A stretch of 64,000 bases of DNA from Undaria pinnatifida. Taxonomy: Eukaryota; Sar; Phaeophyceae; Laminariales; Alariaceae. The notes under the pieces are model-generated. The model was not told where the DNA came from, did no database searches, and was given only the letters and a program-made list of their open reading frames with translations. A program made the position numbers and the translations under genes. The stretch is taken from contig JABAKD010000016.1 of NCBI GenBank assembly GCA_012845835.1, forward strand, positions 13,753,020-13,817,019. Reading direction: 5' to 3'. Numbering within the stretch: position 1 is the stretch's first letter; each line of letters begins with the position of its first letter. Positions 1,229 through 55,100 of the stretch are shown piece by piece.

Positions 1229-2404
1229 GAGAAGCGCGATTCGACCCCGCGAAAGGCCCTGGTGTTAACTATGTAATACCAGGTATGTACGACATTAAGG
1301 CTAAAGTATGGACTTGTTTGGGATAGTCGGTGTTTACTTGCCGAGTTACTTGCGCAGTGGCTATATATATATTTTTTGTCTTTCGAGAGCTTTTTCTCCC
1401 GTCTTCAACTTGCACAACCCCGCGATTTAAACCAACGTCATTCCGAAGGGGAAGCTTGCATTATGATCAAGAGAATAGAACACACTCCAGTTGTGTAATT
1501 CACTGCACGCGTAATGCTAGAAGGCGATGGTTGGGGCGGCGGGGAAGGGGGGGGTGGGGGAGGGTCTAAATGAAGCTTGACTACGATACCATATACATGA
1601 AATGGAGTTACTGCTGCATGGGTGGCTCGAAATGTAAAAGCTCATGTCACCTGTCGGATACGTATTGTTTGCAACTCTGGCGGATATTGATTTTTGGTGG
1701 GGCAGGTGGCGAGGGGGTTGGGGACGTGGCGGGGTGGAGTTGGAGGGGTTGTTAGGGCGGGGGGGGGGGGGGGCGAAGGTGGAGACGATCTTCAATTACT
1801 CATGCCAGGGTACATACAGAAAAACCAGCAATCAATGTAGGATTCGGTACGAAGTTTGTGGAGGCGGTATTGAATTCGGGAAACGGGGGCCAGAGGGCCC
1901 CGGCGAGCGAGAGTGAACACGAGGGTCAGAGAGAAGAGGCGGCGGGTCGTTCTCAGCTAGCAACGACGCATTGGAAGCAGGTGCACATCGCCTAGTACTT
2001 CATCGAATTCCCACCCACCCACCCACCCACCCACCCACCCACCCTATCGCTCAAAAGAGGGGAAGGGGTGGGCACAGCGGAACCCAGTAATTGTTGGGGT
2101 AGAGATGTCTCGCTCGGAGACGCGAGGGCATGAGTTTTGTATCGTGAGTTGGGGGCGGGTTAGTCTGATAGGAAGCACCTTCTGCTGTGTAGAACGTGAA
2201 CGGGGTGTTTTTTCACAAGCAAAAGTAAGGGTTTTAGTTTTTACGCGTTCTTCATAATTTGCGGAAGGAATAATAATGCCAGAATTCTTGAGCCGAAACA
2301 AACAAAGGCATACCAGGTATACCATAAGCACCATTTTTAGTACATACCCTGGCATAATACTCGTTTTATAGGGAAATCCAAAACCACCACGAATCTTTAT
2401 TAAA
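1229..2404. other. Repeat-derived intergenic stretch
   Basis: No gene is recognisable. Positions 1,490-1,800 match the G-rich arm sequence of the 3.4 kb fold-back element: compare 1,570-1,700 with 4,260-4,350, sharing the 'ctctggc.gat.ttgattttggtgggg' theme. Positions 1,320-1,470 resemble 12,460-12,620, sharing 'cattccgaaggg.agc'. A CCCA tetranucleotide run lies at about 2,011-2,044. Confidence 0.6.
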
Positions 2405-3175
2405 AAAATATAAACACACTCCAGCTGTGAGATCCAAGATTTCGTCAAAACTATTATGTTTGTGAGCTGCGTGATTCTCCGATCGCGCGTATTACTGGGT
2501 GTGTGTCCTCATCAAGGATATAGGTCGGCGACTCCCCTTGGAACTACAGTGTAGCTTGTACCAGGGTCAACTGGGTGATATTAATGAATCTGTGCGCGGA
2601 AGCTATAAAACCCGTTTCTGAGGGGGGCCAAATCTGACGGCTGTGGTGGACGGGAGGAATTTTTTTTTACGTTCATGTCATTTTAACGTCAATGCTATTT
2701 ATAGTGACTTTTTTTTTCCGTACAAAACGAGTACTGCAGCAGTACGAATGGTACTTGCGGTATGCGTTATATACCCTAGCCTTTACAACAGGTTTACAAC
2801 ATACCCTGGGATGAATGAATTCAAGGTCGTCTATTATTAACGATAGATGCACTACTTTTTTTTAATGACAACGTAAAAACAACACGACATATATTTTGCT
2901 CCCAAACTGATGCGTTTCCTTCCACAGCTGTCGGATTTTGTCCCCCTCAAAAACGGGTTTTGTAGTTTCCGCGCACAGACTGACTAACATCACCCTGTTG
3001 ACCCTGATAGCTACACTGTACAAGTAGTTTCAAGGGGCGTCGCCGACCTATATCCTCAATGAGGACACACAACCCGTAATGCGCGCGATCGGAGTATCAA
3101 ACAAAGCTTGCAAGGATGCGTTTCGACAAAATCTTCGATCTCACAGCTGGAGTGTGTTTTTATTTTTGAATATTT
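2405..3175. repeat. Inverted pair of ~240-bp fold-back modules
   Basis: A reverse module (about 2,405-2,645) and a forward module (about 2,925-3,175) face outward around a ~280-bp spacer. Both carry the same landmarks in mirrored order: 'cactccagctgtgag', the cttgcaaagatgag box, a 'gaggacacacaacccgtaat' box, 'gtttccgcgcacaga', 'ccccctc.aaaacgggttt' and 'ccacagctgtc'. The pair is probably a small member of the same family as the 3,432-6,817 element. No clear flanking duplication was found. Confidence 0.7.
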
Positions 3176-3405: not shown

Positions 3406-3431
3406 GTGTCACCTGGGCCATGTATATTATG

Positions 3432-6817: not shown

Positions 6818-7001
6818 TATATTATGTAAACAATCGTTTGGGAACCTTGGCTATTTGGGTACACCTGCCGTCAATAGCGTTAATCAAACAAGCAAGCCTG
6901 GTGATTTTGTGTGATGGGACAACCATATCTTGGAATCTATGTGATAAGCACAAGCAGATCATTGACACAAGATGACAATTTGGAAAGGTATTATATTTAA
7001 A

Positions 7002-7275: not shown

Positions 7276-8344
7276 GCTATGCAGAATATTATCGAAGTAT
7301 GAGAAAATATGGGTTTTGTACGTACGTAAGAAGTTTGACCAATCAGATCGATGCGGTAATTCATGGTCTTATGAGCGATAGCATTGGGCACACCTGGCCC
7401 AGCTGTGTAGGCGACGACCTGCACGCGGAGCGCGTAGGGGAGCAGAGTCATAGCTTACAGGTCCAAGGTGTGATACAGACTGGTTTAAGTTCCCACCCAC
7501 CCGCCCGTGCTTTTGAGGGAGTCAGTGGAGGGGGAGTTAATCGGTCGCAGTAACGTTGCGCGTGTTTGTTACTGTTTTGGCAAACGTACCCGTTTTCGCT
7601 GAAGATGCGACGGGGTTTCGTAGATTGCGCAGGTTTGCGGTGGGTGCTAGCCGCATCAGTGTTATAGCGTGGTGCAAGGGGTGTTCGTTGTTGTGTTTTC
7701 TTTTTCAGCATGTGTAATATCTGAGTATCCCTCCGTGCGGTGGGGGTACGTATGACTGTGTTACGCAGATATTATGTTGATAGTTAACAGCGAACGTTGT
7801 GGCAGTGCATCGGCTCGGATTTAGCGCGCAATCTGAAAGTGTGGGAGAGGGGAATTATCCGTATATTGGCAAGTAAGTGCATTTGTTTAATGTGCATGGT
7901 GTGTGCAGGCGTGCAAATTTTATAGCATATTTATTACACGCGTGTGTACGTTTTTTTATATGCTGCACGCTATAGGCGGTTGCCTCGTATGTCTTCTTCG
8001 AGTTGCCAACGATTGTTCGTCGTTGGTTGTTGGCTGGCGTCGAGAGTTCGATGTCGCCTGTTGGGTTGGGAGTTGACTCGTGTATACGGATGTTAGCGTG
8101 GGGTTGCCGGCGGGGCAGCCCCGGGGTATTCCCATCTCCAACCCCCCTCTCCGGGCGGGGGGTTGCGCATTAATATGATACAACTTCGAAAGCAAAGTGC
8201 AAACATACGTATACCATACCTGGTATCATACAATGTACTGTATCATAGTTCTCAATATTTCACGGTGCAATATTTGCATGTACCATGTATGTGTCATGTT
8301 TGTGTGTACCCATCCGACAATAATGTATAATGCTAATATTTTAA
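7276..8344. other. No recognisable feature
   Basis: The ORFs here are short, overlap on both strands and show no family motif. The only notable structure is a G/C-rich inverted patch near 8,095-8,165 (ccggcggggcagccccgggg...ccgggcggggggtt). I see nothing else to support. Confidence 0.5.
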
Positions 8345-8595: not shown

Positions 8596-9264
8596 AGACA
8601 TCTAGATTCTGTAGAACTCAGTATGCATGAAACAGTAACTATTATAGTGTGAGTTAGCTTACGCCGTGGGCTACTTGGGTCTACCGGGTTTGTACGCAAG
8701 TTGCTGTGTGCTCCATGTATATGAGGCAGGCCAGCGGAGGTCCAGTCCAGGCCTGATGCTCGGGTTTTTGCTGTCGAGCCATGATGGAACATGCGGCGGA
8801 CGTTGATCGCTACTGCTCCGAAGTGATGTCTCTTCTGCTCTTGATGTAGTGCAATGGCAAACTCACACACCTGTATTGATCGATTGAATATCAACGAATG
8901 AGACCTGGCGTTCTGCATCAGGCGTTGGGCGGTGCACACTTGATCCTAAAGCTCTCCGAACGCCCATCTCACACACTACCAGGTAATACACAAACCAACT
9001 AAAGCGTGGATCCGAAACGCCAGATCCCTGCACTCTCTACAGATAGAAGCTCTTGCGCTAAAACAGAAATGATCGAAAGTGCGCCACCGTAGCCGATTGC
9101 TTTTGCTGTTCCAGGCAGCTTTCTCCATGGATTTTTTTTGGGTGGAGCGACCTTAGGCCACAAACTAGAGCACCTACCTGTAAACAGGGATTGGGGAAGG
9201 TCGGAATTCATATCGCGAAAAGCACGCAATGACTTCCTCCATACCAGGTATATATGAATATTAA

Positions 9265-9412: not shown

Positions 9413-10480
9413 TATAGTTTTAATATATACCTGGTAGCATATTACAGCGTCAATACGTACGAGTTATCATCAATACGAGGTATTAGCTAATAACGTAACG
9501 TCGATGACTTGTCATGTTGTATCATGTGTGATGTGAAGACATTTACAATTGGACATGTTATGCTTACAAAAGTCTGTAGTCTACCCAGGTCCACCAGGTA
9601 ATATTTCATCAACACGTTTTTTACAGCTGTGTGCATCATACCTGTTAGATTACTGCTGTTACAGACGACCGGCCTGTTACACATCTGCTACCCCAGGCTG
9701 GTAGATCACTCACTGAGATGATACGTTGATGCCTTCCAACAAGTCACGATGTCACGATGGTGAGCGCGAGAGCGTCGGCGCGCCGCTCGGTAATGTAAAT
9801 GCCCGCAGGGTAACCTTTTGGTTGTTTTAGTCCGCTGTCGGGTATGATGATGGTGCGTATCAGGTGTCAGTTTGTGTTTATATTCCTTTATGCGGTGCTT
9901 CCGCGTGCGAGGGGCTATTTTTCCTTGTGTCTATTACACAGCAGTCGCTCTTTTTGCTTGCGCAGATTTTGTTCCCTTGGAACTGAACCCCACGAGAAAA
10001 TTATCGTCCCATTCCGCTTGTTTCTCGTTTTACTTCCTCCCTCTGGCAACAGCCACCAGTGCTCAGCCGCAGCTATACTTCGGGGCTATAGTTCGAAGTA
10101 TACCGGCGAACAGGGATTCAGCGTTAAGGCTACCGGCGATTTTTTTGCGCTATCATGTCTAACATTCTGCGATTGTGATGTGCGAATTGATTGGATTGTT
10201 TGTATATATAGTATCATACTGCTAACTAAGTGTGCCGTGTGCCGTTTGGAGAGGAGACTCGCGCGGCTGTTCAGGCGTGGATCTTTCTTGTACTTGGAAA
10301 GTATATTTCTTTCTGGTGCTACTGCTGTACTGGTATATGGTTGTGAGCAGGCTACAGCAGCAGATCGTCAGACTGCCTGGACGGACCCGAACTTTGTTAT
10401 CGGAGCACAGCAGTACGCGACAGGACCGAAAACGACTGAGAGGAGACTAAAACTCTCAACAATCGTTTTTTCCTCTCTGT
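9413..10480. other. Upstream region of the cyclin gene
   Basis: There is no recognisable gene. A 215-codon open frame (9,844-10,491, +) exists, but its composition is Cys/Arg/Leu-rich and matches no family I recognise. It ends within the probable core promoter of the cyclin gene, so I treat it as a chance frame. Two TACCWGGTA-type sites lie just upstream of and within the left part (9,242 and 9,428). Confidence 0.45.
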
Positions 10481-10589: not shown

Positions 10590-13500
10590 ATGTACTATCT
10601 GCAGGAGGAGGACTTGGAAGAGAAGGATGAGACTTTCGTTCCGAGCTACGCGACGTTCACGCCACACATGTCAAGCGAATGCTTGCAAGACATGAAGTAC
10701 AAGGCACCGGAAAGAAGGGTTCCTAGCGCTGTCGCTCCCCCCAGCTCCGTCGTGCGACCCAACTACCACGATGCGTTGAGAAGAGGTGAGGCTATTTTAC
10801 CTATGTGTAAGGTTTTACAAGGGCTCCGCTCCGCGGGCGGCTGACGCCACCCGCTACGCTCGCGCAAGGAAGATTTCAACTAAATGTGAAGGGGGCAGAA
10901 AGAAGAGGCCCACGATTTAGTGCAACTAGCGATTTGATCATTCCAAGAGCTACTTTTGCGGAGCTTATTGCCCTGTCGGTGCTGTGCTGTATGTTGGCGA
11001 TGTCACGTTCCGATCGGCAGTAGTACGGGTGTAATTTGCGAAGAATAAATCGCGAAGAGGACCGACATTGAGAACAAAACCAACGACGAAAAAGCAAAAA
11101 GACGAGTACACACACGTACCAACGGTACCTGGTACCTGCTACTTGCCCAATACTTGGTGGTACTCTGTGTCGTCCTAAAGAAAGCACAGGGCTCTGCTCC
11201 GCAAGGCTGCTGACGCCGCCCGCCACGCTCGCGCAAGGAAGAATGCAACTGTTCAATAACTGAAACATGTAAATAAATGGGGCAGGAAGAGGCCCGTGAT
11301 TATTATTTGGTGCGAATAGCGAAGTGATACGTGCAATAATGCCAAGAGGTGCTTGTCCAGAGCTAATGGCCCTGGGCTGTGCTGTGTGCTTGTTGATGTC
11401 ACGTTCTGAACGGCAGTACGTGCGATATTGGCGGGGGGGGGGGGCTCATGGGGACCGAGATAGGATATTCATCTGAAGAAAGCAAAGAGACGAGTACACA
11501 AAACACGTACATAAACCTGGTATCTGTATCATACCTGGTACTACAACTACTACTAGTAACTGCTGCCGTATGTTCAAAAAAACGCACAGCGCCGCACGAC
11601 GCCGCACCGCAAAACGAAGGGCAAGACACGGCACCGCACTGCGCTGCGCTGCGCAGCTGAGCTACATATAGCCGTGCTGAACTGAGCTGGGGATGCATTG
11701 TGATCCATTAACAACGTCATATGTACAAACCTGGTGTAGTATTAAAAGTACCGGTACGTGGTATGACTCTTACGAATAATGTTGGCATGTACGTAAAAAA
11801 GTACAGCAAAGCACGCAGTATGGCAGAGCACGGCAAAACACAGCGCTTCGCTCTGCTGAGCTAGCGCTGCGCTGCGGTGCGCTGCTGAGCTGAGCTGCAG
11901 GGCATCGCATGGCACTGCACGGCGCTGCGTTGCTGTGAGCTATAGCGCTGCGGTGGGGTGCTGGGCGGTGTGGAGCTGATGAGCCTAGCCCGGATCTCAG
12001 CTGATGAAACTTCGTAACAAATGGTGGGAATCGAAGAAAAGCTACATCTGGACCGTTCCGCAACTAATGCACAGGAGGCAAATTAGCGGCAAATGGTAGG
12101 AAGTTCAACTTACTAGACAAAAAGGAAGAAAAAATCGCGAAAAAGTTCAAAATCGTGTTGGCATAAAAACCAAGTTTGCGGAAAGCAGCTGAAAGGTCAA
12201 GAAACAACTGGCAAAACGAGCAGAAACGAAAACAATAAAGGCCGAGCAAGAAACCAAAGAAAAGCTGGACCGTTCCGCATGTAAGCTGGACCGTCCGACC
12301 CCGGAGATGTCAGGGATGCACCAACCGAGCGCTTTCAGCAAAAATATCTAAGTAAGTCTATAACCTATAACACCATTTAGACTATGAGCTACGAAGTCTT
12401 GCTTTTTTTTCCCCCATCCGCCGGAGGACATGAAAGAAAAAAAAAACAAAAAAAAAACTATGAAGTCGTTTGGGCTGGACGGTGTTGCGTGCCGGGTTTA
12501 CTCGTGCGGTGGCTTATATTTTTTCTTTTGATTTAAGAGTTTTTTGCCTCCGTATCAAGATGCGCTACGACCCTTGGGACTTCAAGCGTACCGCATTCCG
12601 AAGGGGGAGCGTTGTGTTTTTGTGTAGTTATGAATTGGTCTTTATTTTCGAGGATATTTTCGAGGATATTTGTTTTTAACCTGGTGTTGATTACGACCAT
12701 GGCACTGTTGGGTTGCGAAAGCAACTGAGGTAAATCGACACACGACGCGTATGAAAATACGTGGAAGTGTGGTGAGCTTAACCTTTTCTTTTTTTTTCAT
12801 CCGCCGGAGGATGAAAACAAAAACAAAAAAGACCATGGCACTGCAAGTAGCGAAGGGGTATAGTAGTAGTAGTATAACCTGACACCACTTTATCCGGAAC
12901 TAAAGCATAATTATTTTTCAATAGTGTCCAGAGTTGATTATATTTTCGGACAGAGTGGTACCCTTTAGAGCTGCACCCGCGTGTTTGTAGGGACAGTTTA
13001 CTTAGAGTTCGTGTGGGATACTTTCGCAGTGATGGAAGGATTACCAGTCCTGGTACATATTATGCAACCCCATCCATGGTGTGTTTGGGACTCGAGAGGG
13101 AGAAAAATTCGACAAAATTACGCCAGTGGCGAAAGGATCACGTGTGAACCAACCCCTTGCCTAACATGGTGTCTTTAGGACTTGAGAGGGAGAAAATCAG
13201 GAGAAATGACGCCTGTGATGAAGGATTATGTTACCAGAAGCAACCCCTTGCATGTTGTCTTGGGACTTGGAGACGGAGAAAATCACAAAACACATGACTC
13301 CATACGAAGCACTGCTGCGTTGTTTGATGGGTTATTGTATCATACCATGGGGAGTGACAAAATTGTTGGATGTGCTACTACTGTACAGCAGTGGCGAAGA
13401 ATTGTGCGACACGCCCACAAAACATGCTGCTTGTGCTGCGGCGCGCTCACGGTAGACTGCTTTGATATAAAGCATGTGACTCCAGTTAAGAATGTCTTGT

Positions 13501-16500
13501 TTTCTGGCCTGGCGGGAATCCTTTTTGTGTATGACAGGGTGTGTCCTACACGTTTTTTACTGAGGAATAGACCGCGTTCTATGTTTTCGTCTAAAAACTG
13601 TATGATTAGCCTGAAATTTGAAGCTGTCATATATATATTATATATATCGATCTCACAGCTGGAGTGTATTTTAATTTTTATAATATATTATTAAGTGCGG
13701 TTTTCAGCACGAAACAAACCGTGTTCTTGTTTTTGTGTAAAACTCTGATCAATACCTGGTATAGCCTGAAGGTCGAAAAACCGCCAACTTCGTCAGTGCT
13801 GTCCAATGCTGTATAGTAGACGGTTGATACGTGCTCCTCATGTTTGTGGTGGCAATACCTAGCTACTCGTACGTCCCGAAAGGTTGAAAGCTAGGGCTGT
13901 GAACTAGCTGACTATGAATAGAAGAAAAAGAAGCATCTGACCGGTTTTGTTGTCAGGCAGTTGCCGCGAGTATCACTGCTACTGCAATTGCGTGCTGTAG
14001 CTCAGGGAGTTCTGCGTGTTGTTCTGCGCCTCGTGTCGAGGAAGGCTGAAGTCGGTTGAATATTCGACTTAAAATCGCGACCCATGTATTAGCTATAGCG
14101 GTCTTGTCCGCTCCACTCCTATCCATGCGTGGTAACAACAACAGCAGTAGTAATACAAGACACAAGACACGCGCATCACATATCGATCTGTCAAGCAACA
14201 CGTATCATAGGCGTACTTGTACTGCTGTTACTGCTGTGTCCCGCTATCCGCTGGCACACACCTCTGGCCTCACCACGCGCCGATGGGATCGGATAGTGAT
14301 GGTGGCGACTACGAGAGTCTTGCCACTCTCCTGGCAGTCGCGATTGCACTAACCATGCGCACCATTTGCACCATTCGACAAACGCATGACGCACTATCTA
14401 CTACTGCTCGTGTTTGTCGAGGACGAGGACAGCCGTCGTCTGCGACATACAGGTATCGTTGTTTGATGCACGAGATCGACGGGGGCGAGGGGGAAGACAC
14501 CCCTCCTCGCATAAAGCGCACACGGCGTGCTTTCCCTCGCCCCATCTACAAAGCTTAATCGACGTGTGCGCTAAGATGCTCCGATGCATCCAGCGAACTT
14601 GTGCGAGTGTGTACGTAGTCGAGCGATCGCCGTTGTTCATGGTTTTTCTCGAGACGGGCGACTTATTCAAAACCAATCTGTAAATTGAGGTTTCATTATA
14701 ACAGTCGTCGATCCGATTCTGCCCGTCTGATTCTGCGACCCGAAAATCCATCTCATGTTCGGATTCGGATGCGGTGTTGTAAGAGATGGCCTCACAGCGA
14801 ACTTATCCCGCCCGGTAGAGTAGAGTAGACTGACCTATTGCCTGTTGCTCTGCAACGCTATACGAAACGTTAATATATTAATAGTACGAGTGGTGTTGAG
14901 GGACTTTTTGAGGCCTTCTCGGACTTGCACCTGCACCTGCACCGCCGCGTTGTTGGCCCCTGGGGGCGACGATCTCGTTTCGGCCTTAAATGGCTGGAGC
15001 GTTTGTGTGTGGTAATGTAATGCCACACCGAAATCCATTGTAAGAAATTAAAATACACTCCAGCTGTTAAATCGAAGATTTCCTTCCAAGTTCGTGGAAA
15101 CTTATCTTTGCAAGCTGTGTGATACTCCGATCGCTCGTATTGTATATAAGCACCCCTAGCCATTCACCCCTGTGTTTTATATCACTATTTAATACAGTAA
15201 CTAGGAGTATCACTTGTTTTGACTTTATTTTTATTTTTTTCTCCTTTTTTTTTCAGGTCTGGCTTGCTTTGTTGTGTTCTCGTACCCGGTACGCTAGCAT
15301 TTCACTTGCTTTACCTTGATGAATTGCGACTGTTTGGTTTACTCTGTTTCACAGTCTGTGACCACATACAGTACTGGGCCCGCTATAGTGCAGGGGTGTG
15401 TCCAGATATTTTACCTGCACTATAGCGGGCACCTGCACTACTCATAAGAGTGCCTCAATAGTGCAGGTTCGGTGCTATTGAGGTTTTGAATATCCCTCAA
15501 TAGTGCAGGATGAGGCACTCTTTGACTTCATGGTGTGGCGTTCACGCTTTGCGGGGCTAACAGAGTACGAAATGGATCGAAATTATGTATTAGTAGCGGA
15601 CGAAGATAAATCTCAGTCCTCGTTGCCTTTCTTCGATGTTGCAAGATAGAAAAAGACAAAACAGAAGAAGAAACACGACAGGAAGCGTGCTGCAAAAAAA
15701 CGAGCAACCGTATACTACCGTCCCCCGCCCTCAATACGTGGTGACGAAACTCTCTCATGTCTGCCTGGCGCACCCGCTTCGATGTTGCAAGAACAAAAAA
15801 AACACAAACAAACCAAGACAAGCACGACAGGGAGTGCGCCGCAAGAAAAACAAACAACCATGTACCCCTGGCCCTCACTTGTCGCGACAAACTCCCTTAT
15901 GTCTGCCTAGCGCGCCCGCTTCGATGTTGCAAGAAAAAAAAACAAAAGAAACAACAAAAACACACAGGAAGCTCACTGCATGAAAAACAAAACAACCATG
16001 TACCCCCCGCCTTCACTACGTCTCGACAAACTCTCTCATGTCTGCCTGGCGCACCCGCTTAGCGGAATGCGCTGCGATCATCGCCATCTTTGCTCTCGTT
16101 AGGTAGAACGCCGCGTCTCCGTTGCCACTCTCCTCTGCTGCCGCTTCCAGACAAACATGCTGCCGCAATTACCGTGGAGCCGCCCGCCACATCCTCCCTG
16201 ACAGACGTGGCCATGAGGGGCTTGTGGCGTTCTGTCTTGTTGATGGCACAGTTCACCGTCCGCACAAGGCATGGTGCGCCTCTGCGCTGCGTAGAGCTGC
16301 TCGGGTCTGCAGCAGCACGTGCACCCTCGTTTCTGTGTTGCGTCTGTCCGCTGTTTGTCTGTCCGTGTGTGTGTCCAACCTGCACTATTGCGGGGCACCG
16401 CGGTGCCTAACGTGCACTACAGCGGGACCTTCCTCAATAGCGCAGGTCCTGCACTATTGAGGGCGCTGTCTGTGTCCAGAGATTTTACCTGCACTATACC

Positions 16501-19500
16501 GGGCACCTGCACTATTCAACCTGCACTATAGAGGGCCCAGTACTGTAATAATAATATGTATCTCTCATGATGGGATGAAGAATCACCACGGACTCTTGAT
16601 GTCGTTGGGTATAGTGTATAGAAAGAACGGTTTAATGTGAAGACTGAAGACAACACACATACCGATATACCTGGTACGAGGTCCCAACCCGAGCAAAGCC
16701 CTAAGCCCTAACCTAGCCCGAAAATCACATCAAAGGGGGTGGGACCAGGGTGTGTGTACAACAAAAAAAGCTTTGGGCAGGGGCGCATGGCTTATATACA
16801 CCTATACCTGGTATATTTATAGGGTATTTTGTTCAGTAGCACAAGGTTTATGACTGGAGGTTTTGTTTTGTGGTTCAATTCCACAGCTGAGGTGACCGGT
16901 CCTCCTTTCCCACGCGCACACGCGCACACACACGCACGCACGCAGTCGGGTAATACTAGCTGGTTTCACTGAGTGTTTTGTCACTGTTGTTGTTGTTGCT
17001 GTTGTTCCACCGCTGTAGATGTGAGAGGGGGTATTGTTGGAGTCTACCGCTGTACGTGTTGTCGTGGTTGTTGTTTTTTTGTGTTTTTGTTGTTTTCGGG
17101 GTCATGTGGTTTACTGCGGAACGGGCGAAACGGCAACGACTACTCACAATCATCCATCTACCCCCCACCCCCTACCCACGCTTTGGGGGGTACAAGATAG
17201 GAACGATATAATAGGAACGAGTAAAGGAAACGATAACTAAGGAGAAGGCTAGCACTAAAAAAAAAGGTGGACGCGAGGACGAACATTTAGATATATAAGG
17301 GGGGTTAAGGGAAGAGATGGGAATCGAAACGTATTTGTATGGCCCAATGGACTACGCGAAAACGCTGAAACTGCGTTCACGTGCAGAGGACCTGGACCTG
17401 CCAGAAAGAAGAAAGGGGTGTTCTACAGTAATCCTACAGTAATCCTACAGTAATCCTACAGTAATCCTACAGTAATCCTACAGTAATCCTACAGTAATCC
17501 TACAGTAATCCTACAGTAATCCTACAGTAATCCTACAGTAATCCTACAGTAATCCTACAGTAATCCTACAGTAATCCTACAGTAATCCTACAGTAATCCT
17601 ACAGTAATCCTACAGTAATCCTACAGTAATCCTACAGTAATCCTACAGTAATCCTACAGTAATCCTACAGTAATCCTACAGTAATCCTACAGTAATCCTA
17701 CAGTAATCCTACAGTAATCCTACAGTAATCCTACAGTAATCCTACAGTAATCCTACAGTAATCCTACAGTAGTAGCCGGGTGGAGGAGGAAGAAGGCGCA
17801 CGGAGCTGCCCTTGTGGCAACGCAGACGAGAGTAGAGCCCACATAGTGGGAGAATGTGAACAGACGCATGTTATGTAGAGAAGTGTGGTACTTGAGATAG
17901 TAGCGAGAACACGATCGCTCTCCTTGGAGAGAGATGATGGCCACAGACGGCCAAGAAGGAAGGGAGATGAAGGTAGGCGAAAATGTTAATGTGATACATA
18001 GAAAAAACGTAAGATATACTTTATGTAACTGATGCCTTTCCTTCCACAGCCGTCAGATTTTGTCCCCCTCAAAAACGGGTTGTATAGTTTCCGCGCACAG
18101 AGTAGTTCACAACACCCTGTTGACCCTGGTACAAGCTACACTTGTAGTTCCAAGGGGGGTCGCCGACCACCCCCCTCAACACGCATTACCCACCCACCCA
18201 CTCACCCCCCCCCCCCCCCCCCTCCTCCCCCCGCCACCGATCCGATGCTTGATCAGTTTCTGTGGTGGTGTACCAGCACATTAAGACGTGCGAGTGGAAG
18301 CAGAGGATGGCCTTCAAGCGCCGGAAAGCAGCAGCGGCGGGAAATATGGGTGGTGCCGCCGCAGCACCGTCCATGAAGGTGAGATACGTTTGTCATTTTC
18401 CTGTTTTCAAATACCTGTTTTCACACCTCACCTCTGTAGTTGGGGCTGTGACGTACCTACCCTACCCCTACCCTACCCTGCCACTACCCTAACACCACCC
18501 CTACCCTATCCTACCCTACTTTACCCCGTCACTACCCTACCCCGACCCGACCCGACCCTGCCCTGCCCTGCCCTACGCCACGCTACCCTCCCTATGCTAC
18601 CGTACCGTACCGCTCCCCTGCTCTTTACCCTTCCTACCCTACCCTACCCTACCCTACCCTCCCTACCCCACTTCCCTACCGTACCCTACCCTACCCCACT
18701 TCCCTACCCTACCCTACCCTGTGCTACCCTATCCTACCGTAACTAACCCTGACCAACCTTTCCCTCCTCCACCCTACCCTACCCTGCCCTCGGTCCTGTA
18801 TTCTTAGGCGTGGCGACAATCGGCCCCCTCTTTGGCAACCCTCCGATCCAACGAGAGCGCCTTGTGGGGGGAGGGTGGGTGGAGTGCACCTCGACGAGAA
18901 GGGAAGCCGGTCGAAAAGAAGCACCTTCCGGAACCGTTTAACCACAGAATGGCAGACATTTTCGACCAGAAGTACTTCGTCTCCCCCACCTTCAAGTGAG
19001 TTATGATACTTGGCTTTTGTTTTTATTTTTTTGCTTTTATTTTTCACCATGGGTCTTCAATTTTTTCTTCAAGTACTTGCGAGATATTCCGCGTTTTCTA
19101 CGCTATCTCCCATATGTTAGTGTAATGATGTGAAGGTTATCATACAAGTACTGTTGCTCAAATGAGTACACGCGTTCGTAGCTTAAGCGTTGTTTTTTTA
19201 TATTATTGGTTTCAAGATTGTTTTAAAATTCTCCCCGATTTTTAAACGACGAGTACGATACGAGTACGATACGAGTACGATACGAGTACGATACGAGTAC
19301 GATACGAGTACGATACGAGTACGATACGAGTACGATACGAGTACGATACGAGTACGATACGAGTACGATACGAGTACGATACGAGTATGATACGAGTACG
19401 ATACGAGTACGATACGAGTACGATACGAGTACGATACGAGTACGATACGAGTACGATACGAGTACGATACGAGTACGATACGAGTACGATACGAGTACGA

Positions 19501-22500
19501 TACGAGTACGATACGAGTATGATACGAGTACGATACGAGTACGATACGAGTACGATACGAGTACGATACGAGTACGATATTGTGTTGATGGGCGGAGTAT
19601 TGCGACTCTTCTGAGTCGTCAACGATACAGCAGTAATGTTCCGTCCCCTCTAAAGTGCTGGTTGCCCCCTATGGTGCCCGTGAGATCTCTTGGCACAAGT
19701 AGTGGCAGTATGTGCAGCGGTACCGGTTGCCGCTATTGTGCCGGTGTTTCCCTCTGTAGTGCACATACCGGCACTACACGAGACATCGTGTAGTGCTGTG
19801 TGATCGAGTGAGCTCTGTTGTGACTAGGATGCTGCTTGGTGATGGGATGAATTCTTGTTGCCCTAGGAATTGTGGGGTTGAATGATGGATGGTGGTCTGC
19901 GGGCAATTATTAAAAATTGCTACCAGGTTTATTGTCAATATGTGCTGGCTATGGGTATATACGAGGAAAAACTGCTACCAGGTATACTGTCAATATGTGC
20001 TGGCTATGGGTATATACGAGGTACCTGGTGTGAGATTGGAGGAACAGGGTGGTCAACTTCTTCTGACCACACGAACGTGCGGCTTGCAAGCATGGCGATC
20101 GGCGAAATTGTCGATCTCGCAGCTGAAATGTCTATGGTATAGTTTTTTTGACGATCGGCGAAATTGTCGATCTCGCAGCTGAAATGTCTTTAGTTTAAGT
20201 TTTTTTGACGATCGGCGAAATTGTCGATCTTGCAGCTGAAATGTGTCAGTACTTGTATAGTTTTTTTTGTACTCGAAAATGCTGTTAATATTGTAATAAG
20301 TCATGTGTGGTGTGTTGTTGTGATTTTTTTCGGACGGACAGGTACGACCGGTACGACCTCGTCCCCGCGCCGATCATGGGGTTGCCGGGTCCGCTGTTGG
20401 ACAACAGTAAACCCTCGCCCACATGATCGATCTATCCAATACCAGTTAAAGATTACCCCCAATCCCCTTCCCAATCACGCGTCTAATCCGGCACTACAGA
20501 AGGATTTAACCCCTGTATAGAGCCCCGAAAATCCTTCCCTATACTAACTTCAGGTAAATTTGTCACAACAAATGGGTTTCCAGTTGTACAGGCGTTAACG
20601 GATGGCTGACCCCCCCCCTGATTTTCTTCTGTTCAATCTTGCTCGCGTGTGATTGTGATTTGCCCGGATAGGTACAACTTCGTGCACGCGCCGATCATGG
20701 CGTTGCCGGGTACGATGTTCACCCTCAGGGAGGTGCGATCGGTGCCGAAGGTGCCCACGGTCGACGAGATCTACGAGTTCGTGAAGACGCTGTTCAACAA
20801 GGCGTGCCTCAGCAGCGAGTGCTCTCTGGTGAGCCGATGCCCTACGATATACACATGCAGTTGCTGTGGAGTGCGATGCGTAGATTACTAGGCTTGAGGT
20901 TTGAGGCGAAACAACCTCAGTAGGTCACAGATGGTTGTCGCTGATGGATGATGGTGTGCGCGGCGTCAAGGCTCTGACGTTGGGGATAACGTTGGGGATA
21001 ATGGTGAAAGCAGGGGTGCCGAGGGTACCTTACCGCCTTTCCGACAACATGGTTGACACACTCTTTGAATTATGTACACCCTAGCCCTAACCCTAACCCT
21101 TGACCCAACGAAACGCAACAACCAACCATTGTATATGTACGGTGAAACCCCCTTCGTCTCGTACACAGTGTGCGTCAACCATGTTGTCGAAGAAGTGGTA
21201 AGCTCTGCATTCTATCTTGCGTTGGATCTGTGAGCCGATGGCGAGATGAATGGGATACCGTAATACGATATGAGATATTTTTCGATCAACCATGGAAGAG
21301 AGTGCCTACCCACCGCCGCCTGCCGTGCGTCCCCTCGTTTCGGGTACGTCTGCACACAGCAGTTAGTGTACATCCCGTGCGCTCTTGTGATTTATATCAT
21401 GGTTTACCTTGTAGTTCTGGGAGATGTAATTGTTGGACTACAGTTTGTGTTTTTGCTCAAACCATCAAGCATCTACGCTGTTTTTCTTTCTCTTTCTCGC
21501 TCTAGTCGTAACTCGGATCCGGTGTCACTGAGCAGGCTCTTCTTCCCTCTCCCCCCCATCCCAGTACAAGGTACTCGCCTTCGCTTTTTTCGCGACAAGG
21601 CTTCAGCCCTTTCTTCCCTCGTCGACTCGCATCGAATTGCGTCTAGACTACCAACGCAGCTTGGCGCTCTCAGCAGTTTATTCCTTTTGAGTTTTTACAG
21701 TAGTATTAATAGTACGTACTGAACGTACGCTTACTGCTGCTGTGTAGTTGGTATGTGTTTTTTGTGTTTTTAGTGGATTGCACGTCTCCCGCGGGAGCTG
21801 CTTTTTTGTTGACTACCGGTACTGCTGTACTTGCATCATCTATTGTTGCTGCTATTGCAGACACTGACCGGCACAATCTGAAAATGCTGTTATTCATGCC
21901 GTTATATTATACACGTGTCACGTCCAAGTATTCAAACCCTTTGGGCCCTTGAAAGGACAAAACTCTCGAAAATATGCCAGTCGGTGTCGACTGTCATGGT
22001 CACAACAGGTGGGGGTCACGGGGCTATGCATTGTAGTATTCATTGTAGTAGTAGGGTCATAGGGTAGGTGGCCAAACCGCAGTGCCCGGGGCTGTACGAC
22101 ATGCGAGCAGCAATGGTGGTACTCGCACTGCTGCTGCTGCTGCTGCTACTGCTGCGGCTGCAAGCTCGGATTTTGAACACTTCTTTGGACGCTCGAGAAG
22201 ATCGCGCTCGTCATATTTTGGTCGCGGTACATGCATACGACCCAAGAGGGCTATATACTAGCACCCCACTTACTATCAATAACTATACGTGTAATACGCT
22301 GTAATAGCACGTACGTACGTGTAAGATTCTTCAGATGTGCGCGTAAAATTCATTCATTAGCGCATGTATACGTACACGATACCAGGGTAAGCGACGATTA
22401 ATACTCGTTGTGCATCACGTAGCCTGCGAAGATGAAGAATGAGTATCGACCCTAACTTTGTCGAACTCAAAGCTCAAATATTTAGAATATGTTTCGTAGA

Positions 22501-25500
22501 AAATGTACTAGTATGGCAGGATTGCCCCTGCCGATCTCGTGCCGTCTCGTGCCATCTCGTGCCGACGTCAAGCCCCCCACAGGGCAGTGCTTTTTTTGTA
22601 TCCATTTCACCCCATTGACGTCGTGTGGCACTCCGATCGGTATGATATTTCTTAGGGTTATGTTTGGGTTAGGGGTAGGGTTAGGGGTAGTTCCATCCAT
22701 CCATCCCAGGGTGAAAAAACCCAATAACAAATAGTCAATGTAGAATACACACCCGGGTTGCAGCGATACCTGGGGTACACATTGTTCGCCATTTTTCACC
22801 ATTTTACCCCAGTGACGTCGTCAGGGGTATAGTACGGACTACCTGCTATGCCAATGTGTTTTTTCAACCATGCTAACTGACCCTAACGATTACCATGACC
22901 CGTAGGAAATACTCAGTACTATTTGTGCTCTTTGTACCAGTCGAAGTGTCCCGTAATGATATACCTGGTACTGCTGTGCTTGGAAGTATATCACTCCCAG
23001 GTAAAATGGTTAGAAATGTCAAATAATGATGACATATGTGTATCACTGGCCGACACACCAGACTGTAAATAGTTGAAAGGAAAAAGAAAGAGAGGAGGAA
23101 ACGAAAAAATCACGTGTGATCGAAGATTGACGGTATGTACGAACCTTGTCCTCGACCTTAATATGTGTTTGTGTGTTTTTGCTATTATTATTGTTGTGTT
23201 GTGCAGGTGTGCCTGATTTACGTGGAGCGGCTGATGGAGACGGCGAACGTGCCGCTGCTGGCAGGGAGCTGGAAGCCCGTGCTGTTGTGCGGCCTCCTGC
23301 TCGCTTCCAAGGTGATTATTAATGGTTATTTCGTTCTTTCAAATTGATTGGTTGATTGATTGATTGGTCGGGTGGCTGATTCAAATAATCCATTGGTATG
23401 TTGGTGATTCATTTAGCTCACTGACTCTATTACCTCTAGTAGTGTACTGGAGTTGTTAATATTCAATAGTGTAGATCGCACCTATTCCCCTACACTATTA
23501 ACGAAACCCGGCCGGGAGTATTGGAGGCGTTCCTGTGCCCTGTACTCTTGACGGTATCTCTTGCACAGTAGCACCATGCCACCATACATACCAGCAGCTG
23601 GTACATACAAATAACGTACCAGGTATGATGTATACCGGATAAGTGTTCCTGTTCCATTCCTCCCGAGACAAGTGGTCGGTGAGATCACACTACTGTTCAC
23701 CTTATGGCGTTGGGACTCGGGACCAAAACCACCACCACCACCACCACCACCAGTTATTTTTTGTTTGCTCATCCCATCTATCATCTTGGCACTTTTTCTT
23801 TCTGCTTCTCCCTCGCTATCGTAGACGTAACTCAGATCCGTGGTCACTATAAGCAGGCTCTTCTCCCCCGTCCCCACTACGGTACACGCCTTCACTTTTA
23901 TCGCGACAAGACTTCAGCCCTTTCTTGCCTCGTCGACTCGCATCGAATTGCGCATGCCTACCCACGTTGCTAAGCAGTGTCGGCAAGTATTGCTGCTACG
24001 AGGCGAACCACAACCCCCTCCCGCTCCTCCTCTTCCTCCTCCCTCTGCTCCTCCCCCTCCTCCTCATCCTTCTCCTCCCTCCGTCCCCTCCTCCTCTTGC
24101 TCCGCCCCTTGCTCTGCGTCTCCTCAGGTTTGGCAAGATCTGAGCAGCTGGAACGTAGAGTTTTCCACGGTGTACCCCGAGTACTCCCTCAAGAGCATCA
24201 ACAGGTGGGTAGGGATCGTTGTTATTGACATGCATCTTGGTTTCGCCCTGGGTTTTTGCCCGTTTTTTGCTTTGCCTGGACTGTCGGAAAGATCCCTCGC
24301 GCCTTTCGTTAGCTACCAGGTGTTGATGTTGCCACATATTACTAGCAACAGGCAAGGCCGGGTTCATGTTTTTTTGTAGAGCGAGTCGTCACAGTACGGG
24401 ATAATAGTGTATACCTGGTACACATATACAATATACAACTAGTATTATTGATAGTCCCCTCATACAAACAAGTTGTCGACAGTGTAACAGTGGTTGTGTT
24501 GAACGCGAACCCCTCAGCACGTTTGACCTTTCAAGCGATGCGCTTCAATGACCAAGTACATGTTCATGCGTATTTTTGTGGGTCTTTTTTTCAATTTTTT
24601 TTTTTTTTTCAAGTTGTTACCTGGTAATGGTATGTTTTATGTTATTTGTTTTTCATATAGTTTGCATCGTTGTTTTTATTCCAGCTTTAATAACAAAGAA
24701 AGGTAAAACGTCAGCTGTGGAAGGTTCGGACGCGTGCTACGAGAGAGATAGAAATTTTCGTCTGCAATGTTTTGTGAATGACTTGTGACACGCCTTGACG
24801 AAAAACCGTCGGAAATGGCTTTTTTTCCTTAAGACGCTCCTTAACCCAAAATCGTCGCAAATACTGTAGCCCTTTTTTTTTGGTGAATGACTTGAGACGC
24901 TCCTTAGCCCAAAATCGTCGGGAACAGCCCACTTTTTTTTGGTGGATGGTTCCCGTTCGGAAGCTAGGCTATGGTATATTTTACCCAGTAGCACCAGTTT
25001 TTTTTTTCTTCAAGCTCCTGAGGTGAGAAACCTTGCGAAAAAAACTACAATGGTTGGTGAAACCTCTATCGTAGCACGCGTCGAAAAAAAAAACACCGGA
25101 GGGTTTAGTTTTGGGATCCCCCGCCCTAGAAACGCCTTCGCATCGTGGTATTAATTGTGTGATTTAGTGTGTGCATTTTTTTTAATGTTTTTTTTTCGTG
25201 GTATTAATAGTGTGATTTAGTGTGTGTATGTGTGTTTTATTGTTTTTCGTGGATGTTCTGTATTACACCATTATTCTAACAACGTCAGCTGTGAGTTCGA
25301 CAAATGTAAGGTCGATTGTCATATTTGCAAGCTGCGTAGTACACCCGGCCGCCAGTTGTTGGTAAGTTGTGAAACCTATTAATAGTCAATATTCAATAGT
25401 CAATACTCAATACTCAATACTCAATACTCAATAGTCTATAGTCAATAGTCATCATGATGGACGTTAAGCCTGCAATGAACCATGATTGTGGGATAATCGC

Positions 25501-26911: not shown

Positions 26912-26939
26912 GCTAACGCTAAGGAGGATATCGAACAGA

Positions 26940-31805: not shown

Positions 31806-32924
31806 ACCAAACCGTGAACATGCCGCATTTTTTTGCTGCGACATTTTGTACGGTGCAATAACAAATATATCGCTGATTCCTTCCCTACTGTGTGAGGTGC
31901 AATGTACAAGAAAGGAGGAGGGGGTGGATTTTTTCGATTTAGTTGAGGAGGGTTGCTCAAGTAGAGAAGAATCAGGGTGCATGTACTTGTTCTTGCTGTA
32001 CAGCAGTAGGAGGAGGAAGGGCGGTGGGTGACAACATAGATATGGCGCTTAGGATTATGTGGTAGAAGGTCGTGGTTCGAACTCTTCTTGTTTTACCTGG
32101 TACGCGCATGCGAAGCACGTACGTGTTTCGTCCTATAGAAGAGGCGGCATTGATCGAAAACAGGCTTTCGAGCAAAGAGTATGGGTATGGTAGCCTGTTA
32201 CACTGCCACTCCTGCGTTGTGTTATGTCTTGACCAGGAACTTGAATAATATCAACGAAACCTTCTTGTTATAAAAAATGTTCGAAATGTTCGAAATATTA
32301 ATGCGTCAGCTACAGTAGCAGAGGGACGTGAGTTCGATCGATTGAATGGTATGTGTACTCAACTTTGAACTTTTGAAGGTGCACGCGAAAGCAACATTCC
32401 CGAACCCTTCACGATGGGACTTGCAGACGCTTCGTACGGAAAAATAGGGCATTATTGGTGCGCACGAAACCGAAACCGCGTCACAAATCCTCCAGGACGG
32501 GACGGACATACGGGACTTTTCCGTAATAATATGGAACTTATGCGTTGACGGCTGATCTTATACCTTTTCCATGATACGGTATCCTCCACATACATGCTGG
32601 CGACGCTTAAAACGGGACTCCGATGTTCATAAATTGCATAGGCCGACTGATGACGTCTTCCCTCCTCTTCTTCTGTGCGCCACTATTGGGCCCATATCAT
32701 AGTGATCAGGATCACACGACAGTAAGACGGAAACCTATACCCTGGTACCGCACATTCCCCTACTAGTAGTTTTTCCGGCAAGCACGTTCGGTTATGATTG
32801 CTACTGCCTGTGGTAGTGTACGTTATTATTAGTCTCATAGTATAGAAACCGACGAAGGTCAAATCCCAAGGCCAACCAACCCACGACAAAATTACAAAAT
32901 TAGAGGTTTGAAAAAGAAAAAAAG

Positions 32925-49100: not shown

Positions 49101-52100
49101 ATGCGTCCTGCTTGGGCACCCACGACAGGGCTCGCCCCTTCTGCACTCCTCCTCTCCTTCACAGCAGCTGCAACGGCGTTCGTGGTCCACCATGCCCCGG
49201 CCAACCTCGCATCGTCTCGAGGAGCACTCGCTCCTGTGTCCCCACCGGTATCTCGCCGCGTTTTGAGCACAGACCGCTTGGGGAGAGCTAGAGGTGGAGG
49301 TCGCATCTCTCCCGGGAGGGGGCTGTCTATGGCGTTCGATTTGGGGCAGATGATGGAGCAGATGATGGGCTCGATGGGCGGCAACGGTGGTAGCGGTGGC
49401 AGCAGCAAGGGTGGTAAATCAAGCAAAAATGTGGTATACGATGCTGCTATTGTTGGGTATGGGCCAGCTGGAGGCGTCATGGTGAGTTTGATGTCTTGCT
49501 GACTTGTACTCTTGTACTGCTCGTGCACTGCTGTACGGGTCTAATCGTGTTACTGCTGTAGTGTCTGCATACCGGTAGCAGCGTACGTTGTGCCTGGTGT
49601 GGTAACTGTTGTGTAATTAGGGTGTGAGGCAGTAAGGTTAAGGACTAGTTTGGCGCATTCGGTTTTGAAAGATTACAAGTTGTCGAGCAATTCTGAAGGG
49701 TGTATCAGTACGGGCTCAAATATAAGATACGTTTTATCATTAATATAAATATAAAACGACTATTATATTCCGTCTAGAGCGGTATACAAGACTAACGCTT
49801 CAGCCGTACTTGTACGCACTCGGAAACCCGAACTCGTGTTGATGTGTTGATGATAGCATGTGTACTGGTGTAGGTGCAATGAGTACAGCAGTTTGATTCG
49901 TAGTGTAGACTGCTATTCCAGCACCAGGTAACCGTCGATACATACTGTTGCTGTACGAGTGTTAAAAGTCCATGACAACACAGGGATACACTTGGTATCT
50001 TACCTTGTACCTGGTATGATCTACAATGGCTCCGCTCCGCGGGCGGCTGACGCCGCCCGCTACGCTCGCGCAAGGAATATTAGTACAAAAATTAAAAACA
50101 AAATGAAGTAACAGGACTTCTCCCATTAAGTGAAAAAACTCACCCACATGGTATACTATTATACTAGTACCAACAACGCAGCTTGCAAAGATGAGTAACG
50201 ACCCTAAATTCGTTGAACTTACAGCTGACGTCGTCAGAATAATTTTACTAGTAATTGGTGGTAATGAGGCGCGGCCTCAATACCTGCAGCAGTCATATCT
50301 GCGATGCCTCATATACTACTCATATATGGAGCTCCTTGTACGGTCGACCTCGCACATGTTTTTTTTTTTTTCAGAGCGTATCCCGAACGAAAAAGGTACA
50401 TGATGAGCGAGAGCTGTTGTTGTTGTTCTCGACGCGCTTGTGGACTTACTTGTGGATATAGCAGGTGCTCGTACAGGGGCAGCAGCTTTTTAGACATGAT
50501 AGTTCTCCCTTTTTTTTCGGTTGAACTTTTGCCGGGACGATCAGCATCTATCCATCTATCTATCTCCGGTGTTGTGGGTTTTTATTACTGTAGTCTAGTC
50601 TACTCCGTACGAGCTAAACGAACATCTACGCTGTTTGATATTTACGTTCTGTATTCAGAGAGAATAATAAGTCGTCAATCAACCTCCTGAAAATAGGTAC
50701 TCGTACATACACCAGCATAAATTTCACAGAAAGAAAAAGTCGTCCAACAACCTCCTGAAAATAGCTACTACTCGTACAGCAGAGGAAGGTGTAAAAGCAG
50801 CGGTAGTAACAGCAGCTGAAGAAGGTGTAGAAACAGCGGTAGTAACAGCAGCACGGCACACGGGACCAGAGCCGGGTCAGTGTCGCTGTGCGTGTGTGTC
50901 GTCGACCAACCTCCTGAAAATAGGTACTCGTACGGCAGCATGCTGCAGTATAACAGATAGTGCCCCCGTTCTTTTCGGTTGAATTGTTGAAGGCTCACAA
51001 TCTGCAACAATAGCGTAGGGGAATGAAGCGTCAAGGCCATCCCGAGGTGATCGTAAGGCTGTACGCACAGCACCGCTTTCCCCGGACGTCAAACACCAGT
51101 ACAGGAACCCAATAAGAAACAGGGTAGTAGGAAAGGCTGACTGAGATTGACGGGAACATTAGAAACCCGATAGCCAGTGTACTGAAGTTTGTGCCGAACG
51201 CATCCTCTCTTATGTGTAAAACCCAGCCTGGGATATCACTTGTGTTTCTTATCTGTATCGTAGACGATTTAGATCTTGATCTGTCCATGGCATGCTTTTT
51301 TATTTGTGCTCCTGATCCAGCAAAGGCATACCATAAAACCGAGGAAAAATGAGTAGAATGGATGTAAGCCTAGTCGTTTTTCTCTTTTTGACTGTGACAC
51401 CCCGACGACTTCACGCGCGTGCACCCCTCAGGCTACCCTCCTGGCCGAAAAGCACGGCCTCAAGGTGTGCATCATCGACCCGAACCTAGAGAAGCGCTGG
51501 ATACCGAACTACGGAGTCTGGGTGGAGGAATGGGAGGCGCTTGACAAAGATCTGCAGGTGCCCGTTGTGTCAACCCCTTTTGAACCGCACTCACATTTTT
51601 GCCGCGTTTTTTTTTTTTTAATTATGTTTAATAAAAAACACATCGGGTGTGATGTCGGCATTTTTTTTCATAACTCGATTTGCCAGCGCGTGATATTATA
51701 TGTATCCGTGAGTAGCGCGTGCCAAGGAAGGTTCGAATGACCTGATGAAGAAAATAGGCCTGTGATTATCTCCGCTGCCCCCCCCCATTGCCAGATCGGG
51801 CTGGGGGATTGCCTTGACCTGACGTGGGAGGTGACGGATTCGTTCTTCGGTGGCAGCCACGGCGTCCCCGCGGACGAGCGTTGTCGCATCAACCGCGCCT
51901 ACGCACGCGTGTCCCGCGATAAGATGCAGGCCAACCTAAAGGCTCGCCTGGCTGCCGCGGGAGTCGACAAGATTGCGGGGAGAGTGGACGCGAAGACGGT
52001 AAGACTCGTGTCATTGTACCTTGTATATCCGCGTTGGAGGCGTATAATTTGCTGCAGTTTTGTGTATCGTTTTGCGTTGTTTTTCCCTTGGGAGGTAGCC

Positions 52101-55100
52101 TTCGACGCCAGAGTTGTTGGAGCCTGTCCATGTATTCAATACCAATAGGTTATGGCGATGAGTAAAATGAATGTGAGAACAACCACCAAATGTTCTACCC
52201 ATGTCAACACCACATCGACTACCCATGCAGGGACTGAGCGGGTCCATGGGGGTATCGTGATGGTGTATACTCCATTGAGTCGAGCGGTCTATTCATCCAG
52301 AGGACACACTTAGTGGGGATATTTTATGCCGGGGGAACCTTGACGGTTACCTGGAATTGTGTCGCGCTTAACCCCTTTGAGAAATCAGACGGAAAAAAGG
52401 TATAAAAAAAAGTGTGACAATTGCCGAATTGGGGCATACGAAGCATCCCTCTCTGCTGGAGTAGGGGGTGTATCCGAAGTGCAGACGAACGCGGAAGGAG
52501 GTGTACGACGCGTGTCCAGCGTTCTGGTATACCTGGTATGTACTATGGCACGCCTAAACCGCGCTATTGATAGTCCCAAACTTGTCGTTTGTTGTGGTAG
52601 CTAAGCGTGGGTCCCTGAAGGATATAGTCGTGCGTGTTGTACGGTAAGCTGTTAGGTCCGGACAGGTTGACATCGGTAGAAGGCAAAAAGGTTACTCATC
52701 CTTCGGAGGAAGGAGGCGTTTTGGTGTTCTAATAGCTTTACGTTAACGGTGCATAACAGGTGGAACACTCGGCGGAGGGGACGACGATGTGCCTTGACGA
52801 CGGGAAGCTGATCAACTGCCGCCTCGTTGTAGACAGCAGCGGACACTTCTCGGAGCTTGTGGAGAGAGTTGGCGAGCACAACCCGGGGGTGCAGATCGCG
52901 TACGGGGCGGAGGTAGAGGTGAAGGGTAAGTCTTAGCCTTGCCTGGTCCGTCTTAAAACAAGCAGTTTTTACCGGAAATGAGAACGTACAGCTTAGCTGT
53001 GAGATCGAGAGATTCGTCGAAGCTTGGCTTTGCTAGCTGCGTGTGATACTTCGATCGATGATCAGTTTGTAGTATTTTACCTAGTGACTGCCACGAGCGG
53101 ACTTGTCAAGGGTCGTGCAACTTACCAGGTACAAAGCACCCACAAGTTCCATCCTAAAGGGTTCGGAAATGTTGCTTTGGCGTGCACCAAAAGTCCTCGG
53201 TAAAATAAATTGAGAAACGAACGGGTGCATAATACATGTAGATGTGACAAACGAGGTTCCGGCCGCCGAAGTAAAAATAGTCTCAAGACTCCCAGAGGCC
53301 AAATGGTGACGATTTCCTGCACTCTATCAAGTCGCAGACAGCTTTTATAATGGCTATATTGTAGTTGGAGGGGCACTGCTTGAAGTAGAAGTGTCTAGTA
53401 GTAATACTATACTGTACGACTACAACAGTAGCCTACACGTGGAAGGCGTTAAATGCTCTCTGTTTACCTCCCCAACAAACCATACGCTACCCTGACATTC
53501 CTGCCACTTCTTATCCACCAGACGGACATGCCCCGTACGACGAAAACGCCATGTTATTTATGGACTACCGCACGGACTACGTGGATGACAAGTCGGAGCT
53601 CTCAGAGAAAGAGTTGAGGGAGTTGGACGAGATCCCAACGTTCCTCTACGCCATGCCCATGGGGGAAGCGCCTAACGGTCGACGAAGGATCTTCTTCGAA
53701 GAGGTGATTGGTTGGTTGACTCACCCCTCGGTCTTATAGTGTGATACTTGGTGGTAGTGTTTTTTGTTTCCGTTTTTGGCACGTTAGTTTTTTAGGCTTG
53801 ATTCGGGGGTCGTTGCTTGTTGTGAGCGGCCTCCTCTAGTGCGGACCGGATGTGAACACGACGACCGAATAGGCCCCGACTACCAGTCCCAAATTAGGAG
53901 CAAGACCGAGTAGGCATTATTCAGAACGTCTGGTACTGTTATAAGCAAGTGGCTTGCCGAGATACAACCCAGAGTCAACAGGAGAACGAAGGAATGTTCG
54001 TGTTTGTACATACAATAAATCGGATGCCCTCACCATTCCCCCCCTCTCTCCCCCGCCCCCTCGTGGTATTGCTTCCGGTCGATCCCGTACCGTACCGTGT
54101 TATGGTCTTGAGACTGCGGCCGTGCATAATTTTGAGTACGCCTCCCCCCCTCGCACCCCTCTCTGCCCCGCCTTCTCGTTTACTTGCTTCCGGTCAACCC
54201 CGTACCGTGCCGTGCCGTGGCCCTGTAGACGTCTTTGGTGGCGCGTCCTCCGATAAGCTTCGATCTCTGCAAAGAACGCCTTTACAGGCGTATGAAGCAC
54301 CACGGAATCGAAGTCACCAAGGTTATGGACGAGGAGTTTTGCTATATTCCGATGGGAGGCGCCATGCCGGTCCTAACTCAGGTTAGTCTAGTCGGCTTCA
54401 TATCTGTCTGCCTGTCTGTCTGTCTGCCTGCCTGTTTGTTGACACGTAAGTCCGTCTGTCCGTCTGTCCAACGCCATCCCCACCCCCATCCCGGCCCGTA
54501 CACTCACTTGTTGCGCAATTGTCCAGCGCGTTGTGGCCTTCGGCGGAGCATCTGGACTGGTGCATGCCGCGACAGGCTACATGCACGTGAGCGAGTTGCT
54601 GTACGATCGAGATAATGTCAAATAAGATTGAGAAAAGGTTGAGAGAAGGTTCATAAGAAGTATAAGTTCGAAATAAAATTGAAATAAAGTTGAGTCGAGG
54701 TAAGGCAGGCATGGGGGGGTGGTAGATTGGGTGACGATCAGCACGTCGTGGCTCGTGTACCTCATGGTGCCATTGCAAGAGCTGTAGTATACCACGTGGC
54801 CTAGCTTTCGACGAAGTTGGCGATTCACGTATGGCTTGAGACGTTATTAACTAACAACCATTAACGCTAACGCTAGCCCTAACCACGATCGGCTGGGGAA
54901 AAATATCGCAATCATGATGTAATGAGAATTTACTGTACGCACTGTGAACTATCAACCATTTTGGTCGAATCTGGGCGAAGTCGAAAATACACAACGATGC
55001 TGATGTTGCTCGATGTCTTGCCGTCATCCCCAATGGCCCACAACCCCGCGCCGCCGCCTCAATGAAGGTACGAATGTTGGCGGCCTCCGGGGGCGTCGCC

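Follow-up and report, generated by a model that had tools for sequence, protein, structure and literature searches.

Why does one 9-bp near-palindrome, TACCWGGTA (W being A or T), recur so often in a 64,000-nucleotide stretch of the genome of the brown alga Undaria pinnatifida (assembly GCA_012845835.1, contig JABAKD010000016.1, positions 13,753,020 to 13,817,019; hereafter the window)? The first-pass annotation of the window had placed exact copies at 21 coordinates, and all 21 were recovered with none missing and none extra; by centre base, seven are TACCAGGTA and 14 are TACCTGGTA. An order-3 Markov model predicts about 0.6 copies, and with tandem arrays masked the word tops the over-represented 9-mers of the window (21 against 0.5). 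The excess extends beyond the window: across the assembly (511,146,479 bases, 68 contigs) TACC(A/T)GGTA has 85,263 occurrences and the reversed word, which served as control, 3,475, an enrichment of about 24.5-fold and thus far from the chance-level counts by which the annotation had proposed to judge its observation. Comparison of related sequences makes it near certain that the word is an insertion, TA-CCWGG-TA, composed of CCWGG plus a duplicated TA, and we consider it very probably the excision footprint, or scar, of a TA-targeting transposon of the Tc1/mariner/pogo group.

BLAST searches with the flanks of sites recovered repeats that carry the word in one copy and lack it in sister copies. 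The 71 sites read comprise the 21 of the window, 24 in 140 kb from 14 genome stretches, and 26 in 20 short stretches (L016-L035), the last picked around listed, often clustered sites and therefore a non-random sample. One 7-bp unit was deleted from each site and all sequence read was searched again, a copy being scored as empty if it aligned without gaps, lacked the unit and had no more than three differences around the unit position. The site at L002:9937 is filled, with two empty copies in L011 (87% and 85% identity); L007:2715 is filled, with two empty tandem copies in the same stretch (99.2% and 99.1%); and L035:101 has its best empty copy in L004 (89%). L028:101 is a second unit beside a first, reading TACATGGTA, and its sister copies L026 and L027 have one unit (86%). 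Each time the length difference is 7 bp, three families having only the TA when empty and the fourth one unit in place of two, and TA flanks the leftover bases on both sides. Because filled and empty paralogs differ by exactly this unit, the word is read as CCWGG inserted with a duplicated TA. Among 90 clean paralog indels of 4-14 bp, three have a length of 7 bp, and TACCWGGTA accounts for two of them; 75 of 165 indels had been discarded before counting for unclean sides, alignment identity below 75% or a length of 3 bp. A match of L019 in a microsatellite was excluded from the empty-site count, as were alignments of L026/L027 to L004, L012, L013 and the window, in which the differences exceed the unit. 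L022:108 and window site 11126 align both with and without the unit, better with it, and were scored as filled; L014:5437 is ambiguous between the two states.

The annotation had named longer homologous flanks shared by all copies as grounds against its observation; most sites read have no long flanks in common, and besides a few paralogous pairs, k-mer and BLAST comparisons detect only a weak symmetric target pattern. Its remark that an A usually precedes the word was partly right: with A read as the centre base at the 71 sites, a purine rather than just A precedes in 53, and a pyrimidine follows in 61. A flanking TA is present at -7 in 17 sites and at +14 in 20 sites, against 3-10 sites at most other offsets (15 at +9). 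The closed-up target is approximately TANNNNR-TA-YNNNNTA, symmetric about the TA. An asymmetry of the flanking TA seen at 45 sites (17 against 8) was gone at 71 (20 against 17). One TA can be reused, as two units on one shared TA (TACCWGGTACCWGGTA) occur 3,654 times genome-wide against two for the control, and at least one triple unit is present (overlapping places C1:9383769 and C1:9383776); slippage may contribute to the doubles.

Variants of the word were counted in a masked sample from which Tandem Repeats Finder (TRF) arrays had been removed, and compared with Markov expectation. The excess is 41.7 for the exact word and 47.7 for one-mismatch words (81 against 33.3). Genome-wide, the word with an S (C or G) at its centre occurs 9,212 times against 2,599, an excess of about 8% of that of the W-centred word. 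These levels fit neutral decay, with units on average about one tenth mutated per base by our estimate, and at least one unit is young, judging from the pair that is 99% identical.

The closest match to this product is the footprint that TA-targeting Tc1/mariner/pogo transposons leave at excision, and for the parent of the scars, ends starting CCAG are predicted. A cut-and-paste transposon would enter a TA within a weak symmetric target, with duplication of the TA, and excision would leave a few terminal bases as a single-stranded tail on either flank. With ends starting 5'-CCAG, the tails could pair via CAG/CTG around a central A:A mismatch, and filling and mismatch repair would then give TA-CC(A/T)GG-TA; tails filled without pairing would instead make TACCATGGTA abundant. 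In the Sleeping Beauty footprint, the A/T goes back to the A:A mismatch that forms when CAG tails pair. CC(A/T)GGTA would be the Sleeping Beauty form plus one C:G per side, as ends in CCAG or CCAGG would yield. Extracts of PMC3878927 describe 2-3-nucleotide 3' tails at the donor site after Tc1/mariner excision, and C(A/T)GTA as the sequence left by Sleeping Beauty and Frog Prince. We infer for the present scars a longer transposon formerly between the flanks, the length of its tails and the steps of repair.

A TA-targeting transposase is encoded in the genome. Matches to the pogo-type domain DDE_1 (PF03184) number at least 82, a few being fragments of one copy and many lying in open frames; DDE_3 (PF13358) has eight genome matches, seven above the cut-off and several of equal score. 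A profile search with PF01359 gave no match, its search control being equally silent. Pogo family A has two copies with 96% identity across 2.8 kb and a common right end CTACTG-TA; it was rejected as parent because this end starts CAGTAGG rather than CCAG. The DDE_3 locus in L015, where a 767-aa open frame with the match spans 3037-5337, was also rejected, its 8.5 kb having neither TACCWGG or CCWGGTA nor clear inverted TA ends. TACWGTA, the scar expected from CAG ends, is enriched 1.6-fold (114,188 against 71,422 for the control) and is a possible second scar type. Within the window, a TA-bounded element at 15367-16547 carries repeated ATAGTGCAGG motifs, and its ends have the motif TATAGTGC[A/G]GG in common with pogo family copies (L038/L039). 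This element is not the parent of the scars, yet it shows that the transposon class is present. A noisy paralog split survey of 212.5 kb revealed no CCAG-ended insert.

Ends of the predicted kind were encountered as short pairs. An inverted-end search of 204 kb found, in L007, TACCAGTCTGGG ends facing an inverted TACCAGTCTGAG at 6942 with 3-4 of 18 mismatches, as well as weak inverted pairs starting CCAGG with 4 of 18 mismatches (L006, L013 and pairs of scars). Genome-wide, TACCAGTCTGGG has 125 places, and the first 100 of them include six convergent pairs, five with outer lengths of 77, 83, 83, 91 and 86 bp and one of 696 bp. By chance, 61 and 64 places scattered over 511 Mb would form 0.0008 pairs no more than 100 bp apart. 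The putative element ends in these short inverted pairs would read TA-CCAGTCTGGG and are candidate resident termini. We regard the short TACCAGTCTGGG pairs as candidates for tiny TA-bounded elements with CCAG ends, of the kind that the mechanism requires, and presumably as relatives of the parent transposon; the parent itself is a candidate and not proven. The L007 locus (6087-6943) consists of a 97-bp tandem repeat of 3.9 copies (TRF, to 6466), with TACCAGTCTGGG in the units, followed by the inverted TACCAGTCTGAG, and a block of about 90 bp adjoining the repeat recurs at window positions 20506-20598 and in L003, L008 and L010.

Several observations weigh against a transposon footprint. The leftover here is 5 bp, beyond the 0-4 bp described for the group in extracts of PMC7913693, PMC9976928 and PMC1925063, and the product is strikingly uniform, unlike in rice, where excisions are mostly imprecise according to an extract of PMC4423477. 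The only pogo family with an end read lacks the CCAG start, as described above, and TACWGTA is absent among the 90 clean paralog indels. TACCAGTCTGGG is not enriched (125 places against 139 for its reverse), the L007 candidate sits in a tandem repeat, the block next to it occurs in the other three stretches without CCAG ends, and so few short CCAG pairs do not alone explain about 80,000 scars. For none of the 21 window sites was a clear empty paralog found, the clear spanning relative of site 11126 (L022) being filled. Steady decay would also have produced an excess of some tens of two-mismatch words, but the masked sample has none (385 against 392); this absence may reflect a wave of activity.

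A distinct or host-tamed TA-cutting transposase, with self-pairing tails of 4-5 nucleotides and a repair that nearly always goes one way, leaving scars about 1000-fold more numerous than transposase matches, is an unlikely source; at the extreme, the scar would be the whole 7-bp unit without a longer element, or the product of programmed removal of many elements. That the 7 bp are themselves the entire mobile unit, inserted directly by an enzyme specific for TA or by a repair process and with no larger transposon, appears quite improbable. This reading retains some probability because the leftover exceeds the described range and the product is uniform, and the compared sites show only states with and without whole units, never an occupied one; on the other side, the result agrees in type with the footprints of a transposon group that the genome contains, and the short inverted pairs provide candidate CCAG ends. 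We know of no enzyme for direct 7-bp insertion at TA.

Before these comparisons the annotation had proposed three candidates: a site bound by a protein, an element of replication or chromatin, and the terminus of a very short mobile unit. The last came closest, although the word fits a scar that a transposon left on departing better than it fits the terminus of a tiny one. Neither of the others predicts a precise 7-bp insertion at TA. HIP1 of cyanobacteria is, like the word here, a highly repeated short palindrome, which to our knowledge has not been described as an insertion at TA. A scattered, selected protein-binding or chromatin site forming a eukaryotic counterpart of HIP1 would account for the near-palindrome, its sharp core and strong enrichment, and for the extra symmetric TA about one helical turn off centre. 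We nevertheless set a site of this kind aside as very unlikely because empty sites exist: four repeat families show the unit inserted as one block of 7 bp, and it is doubled at 7 bp in thousands of places. Moreover, a selected site should lack variants, so the abundant one-mismatch and S-centre words, which stand at about the level of decay with no sign of depletion, speak against selection.

It is extremely improbable that the copies are remains of a miniature inverted-repeat transposable element (MITE) or of a repeat family with the word near its end. Sites 9242 and 9428 do border one repeat copy on both sides, but the 71 sites have no common flank beyond the weak target, save a few paralogous pairs (such as L026/L027 and L022/window 11126), and the empty copies are short of 7 bp only. 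Chance, or the slippage of a tandem 7-bp unit, has almost no probability: despite the doubles and triple at 7-bp spacing, the copies read are mostly solitary and surrounded by unrelated DNA, single insertions at a plain TA were observed, and the control word is far rarer.

Scars of the footprint type are already known. Sleeping Beauty and Frog Prince resemble the excision footprint proposed here in the TA target, the self-complementary A/T-centred core and the repair of 3' tails, as far as the extracts of PMC3878927 describe them; they differ in a core of 3 bp against the 5 bp of CCWGG, and unlike theirs the parent here is only a candidate, the scar being met in about 80,000 genomic copies and not in an assay. 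Osmar5 and Stowaway of grasses also leave TA-bounded terminal bases at empty sites and re-insert at the same TA, with leftovers that vary where one product dominates here (extracts of PMC1925063). The pogo-type (DDE_1) elements of this genome share the TA at the end read, and their predicted scar TACWGTA is enriched too, but the end read is of the other type. Our literature search found no genome-scale census of such scars and no uniform scar in about 80,000 copies, and a search by motif strings returned no paper on such a motif among the matches listed.

The genome seems to carry about 80,000 scars, from which past movements of transposons could be read. A census of cut-and-paste transposons normally rests on their surviving copies; if one family leaves a constant scar, its departures become countable and datable genome-wide, and insertion preference, excision rate and repair outcome could be followed over evolutionary time without transposition assays. 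Many 7-bp indels may also stem from such scars, which risk being misread as regulatory motifs.

The window is about twice as dense in scars as the genome (21 against 10.7 expected, P = 0.003), and 18 of its 21 sites lie inside the first 32.2 kb, where 5.4 are expected (Table 1). The stretch at 32.1-50.0 kb does hold none, as the annotation had pointed out, although at the genome rate this gap is only borderline (P = 0.05). On contig 1 the first 100 listed sites are mildly clustered: 27 of the gaps between them do not exceed 1 kb, where 18.9 would be expected. Scars 9242 and 9428 have an inverted arrangement around their repeat copy (TACCAGGTATATAT ... ATATATACCTGGTA), which AT-rich targets may have produced by coincidence, and scar 50008..50016 probably lies in an intron. 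The window also has lycopene cyclase-like exons, which suggest a photosynthetic eukaryote.

Table 1. Positions of the scars and of the TA-bounded element in the window
Feature	Coordinates	Strand	Remarks
Scar TACCAGGTA	1277..1285	.	exact match
Scar TACCAGGTA	2311..2319	.	exact match
Scar TACCTGGTA	8217..8225	.	exact match
Scar TACCAGGTA	8977..8985	.	exact match
Scar TACCAGGTA	9242..9250	.	exact match
Scar TACCTGGTA	9428..9436	.	exact match
Scar TACCTGGTA	11126..11134	.	exact match; paralog L022 with doubled unit here
Scar TACCTGGTA	11532..11540	.	exact match
Scar TACCTGGTA	13753..13761	.	exact match
TA-bounded 1,181-bp element	15367..16547	.	inverted ends TA-CAGTACTGGGCCC[G/T]CTATAGTGCAG, terminal inverted repeat pair
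Scar TACCTGGTA	16668..16676	.	exact match
Scar TACCTGGTA	16805..16813	.	exact match
Scar TACCAGGTA	19976..19984	.	exact match; in 55-bp tandem duplication, other copy at 19921 = TACCAGGTTTA
Scar TACCTGGTA	22962..22970	.	exact match
Scar TACCAGGTA	23617..23625	.	exact match
Scar TACCTGGTA	24412..24420	.	exact match
Scar TACCTGGTA	24618..24626	.	exact match
Scar TACCTGGTA	29056..29064	.	exact match
Scar TACCTGGTA	32094..32102	.	exact match
Scar TACCTGGTA	50008..50016	.	exact match; 1.3 kb before lycopene cyclase-like exon
Scar TACCTGGTA	52530..52538	.	exact match
Scar TACCAGGTA	53123..53131	.	exact match

Short repeats were also recorded in the window. A perfect 11-bp array of CTACAGTAATC occupies 17423-17771 (31.7 copies, 100% match), and the array of ACGAGTACGAT at 19249-19579 has the same 11-bp period (30 copies, 98%). 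Several frames are open in a 22-bp array at 36621-36950 (15 copies, 99%) and, on both strands, in the approximately 200 copies of CCGAC at 40253-41250.

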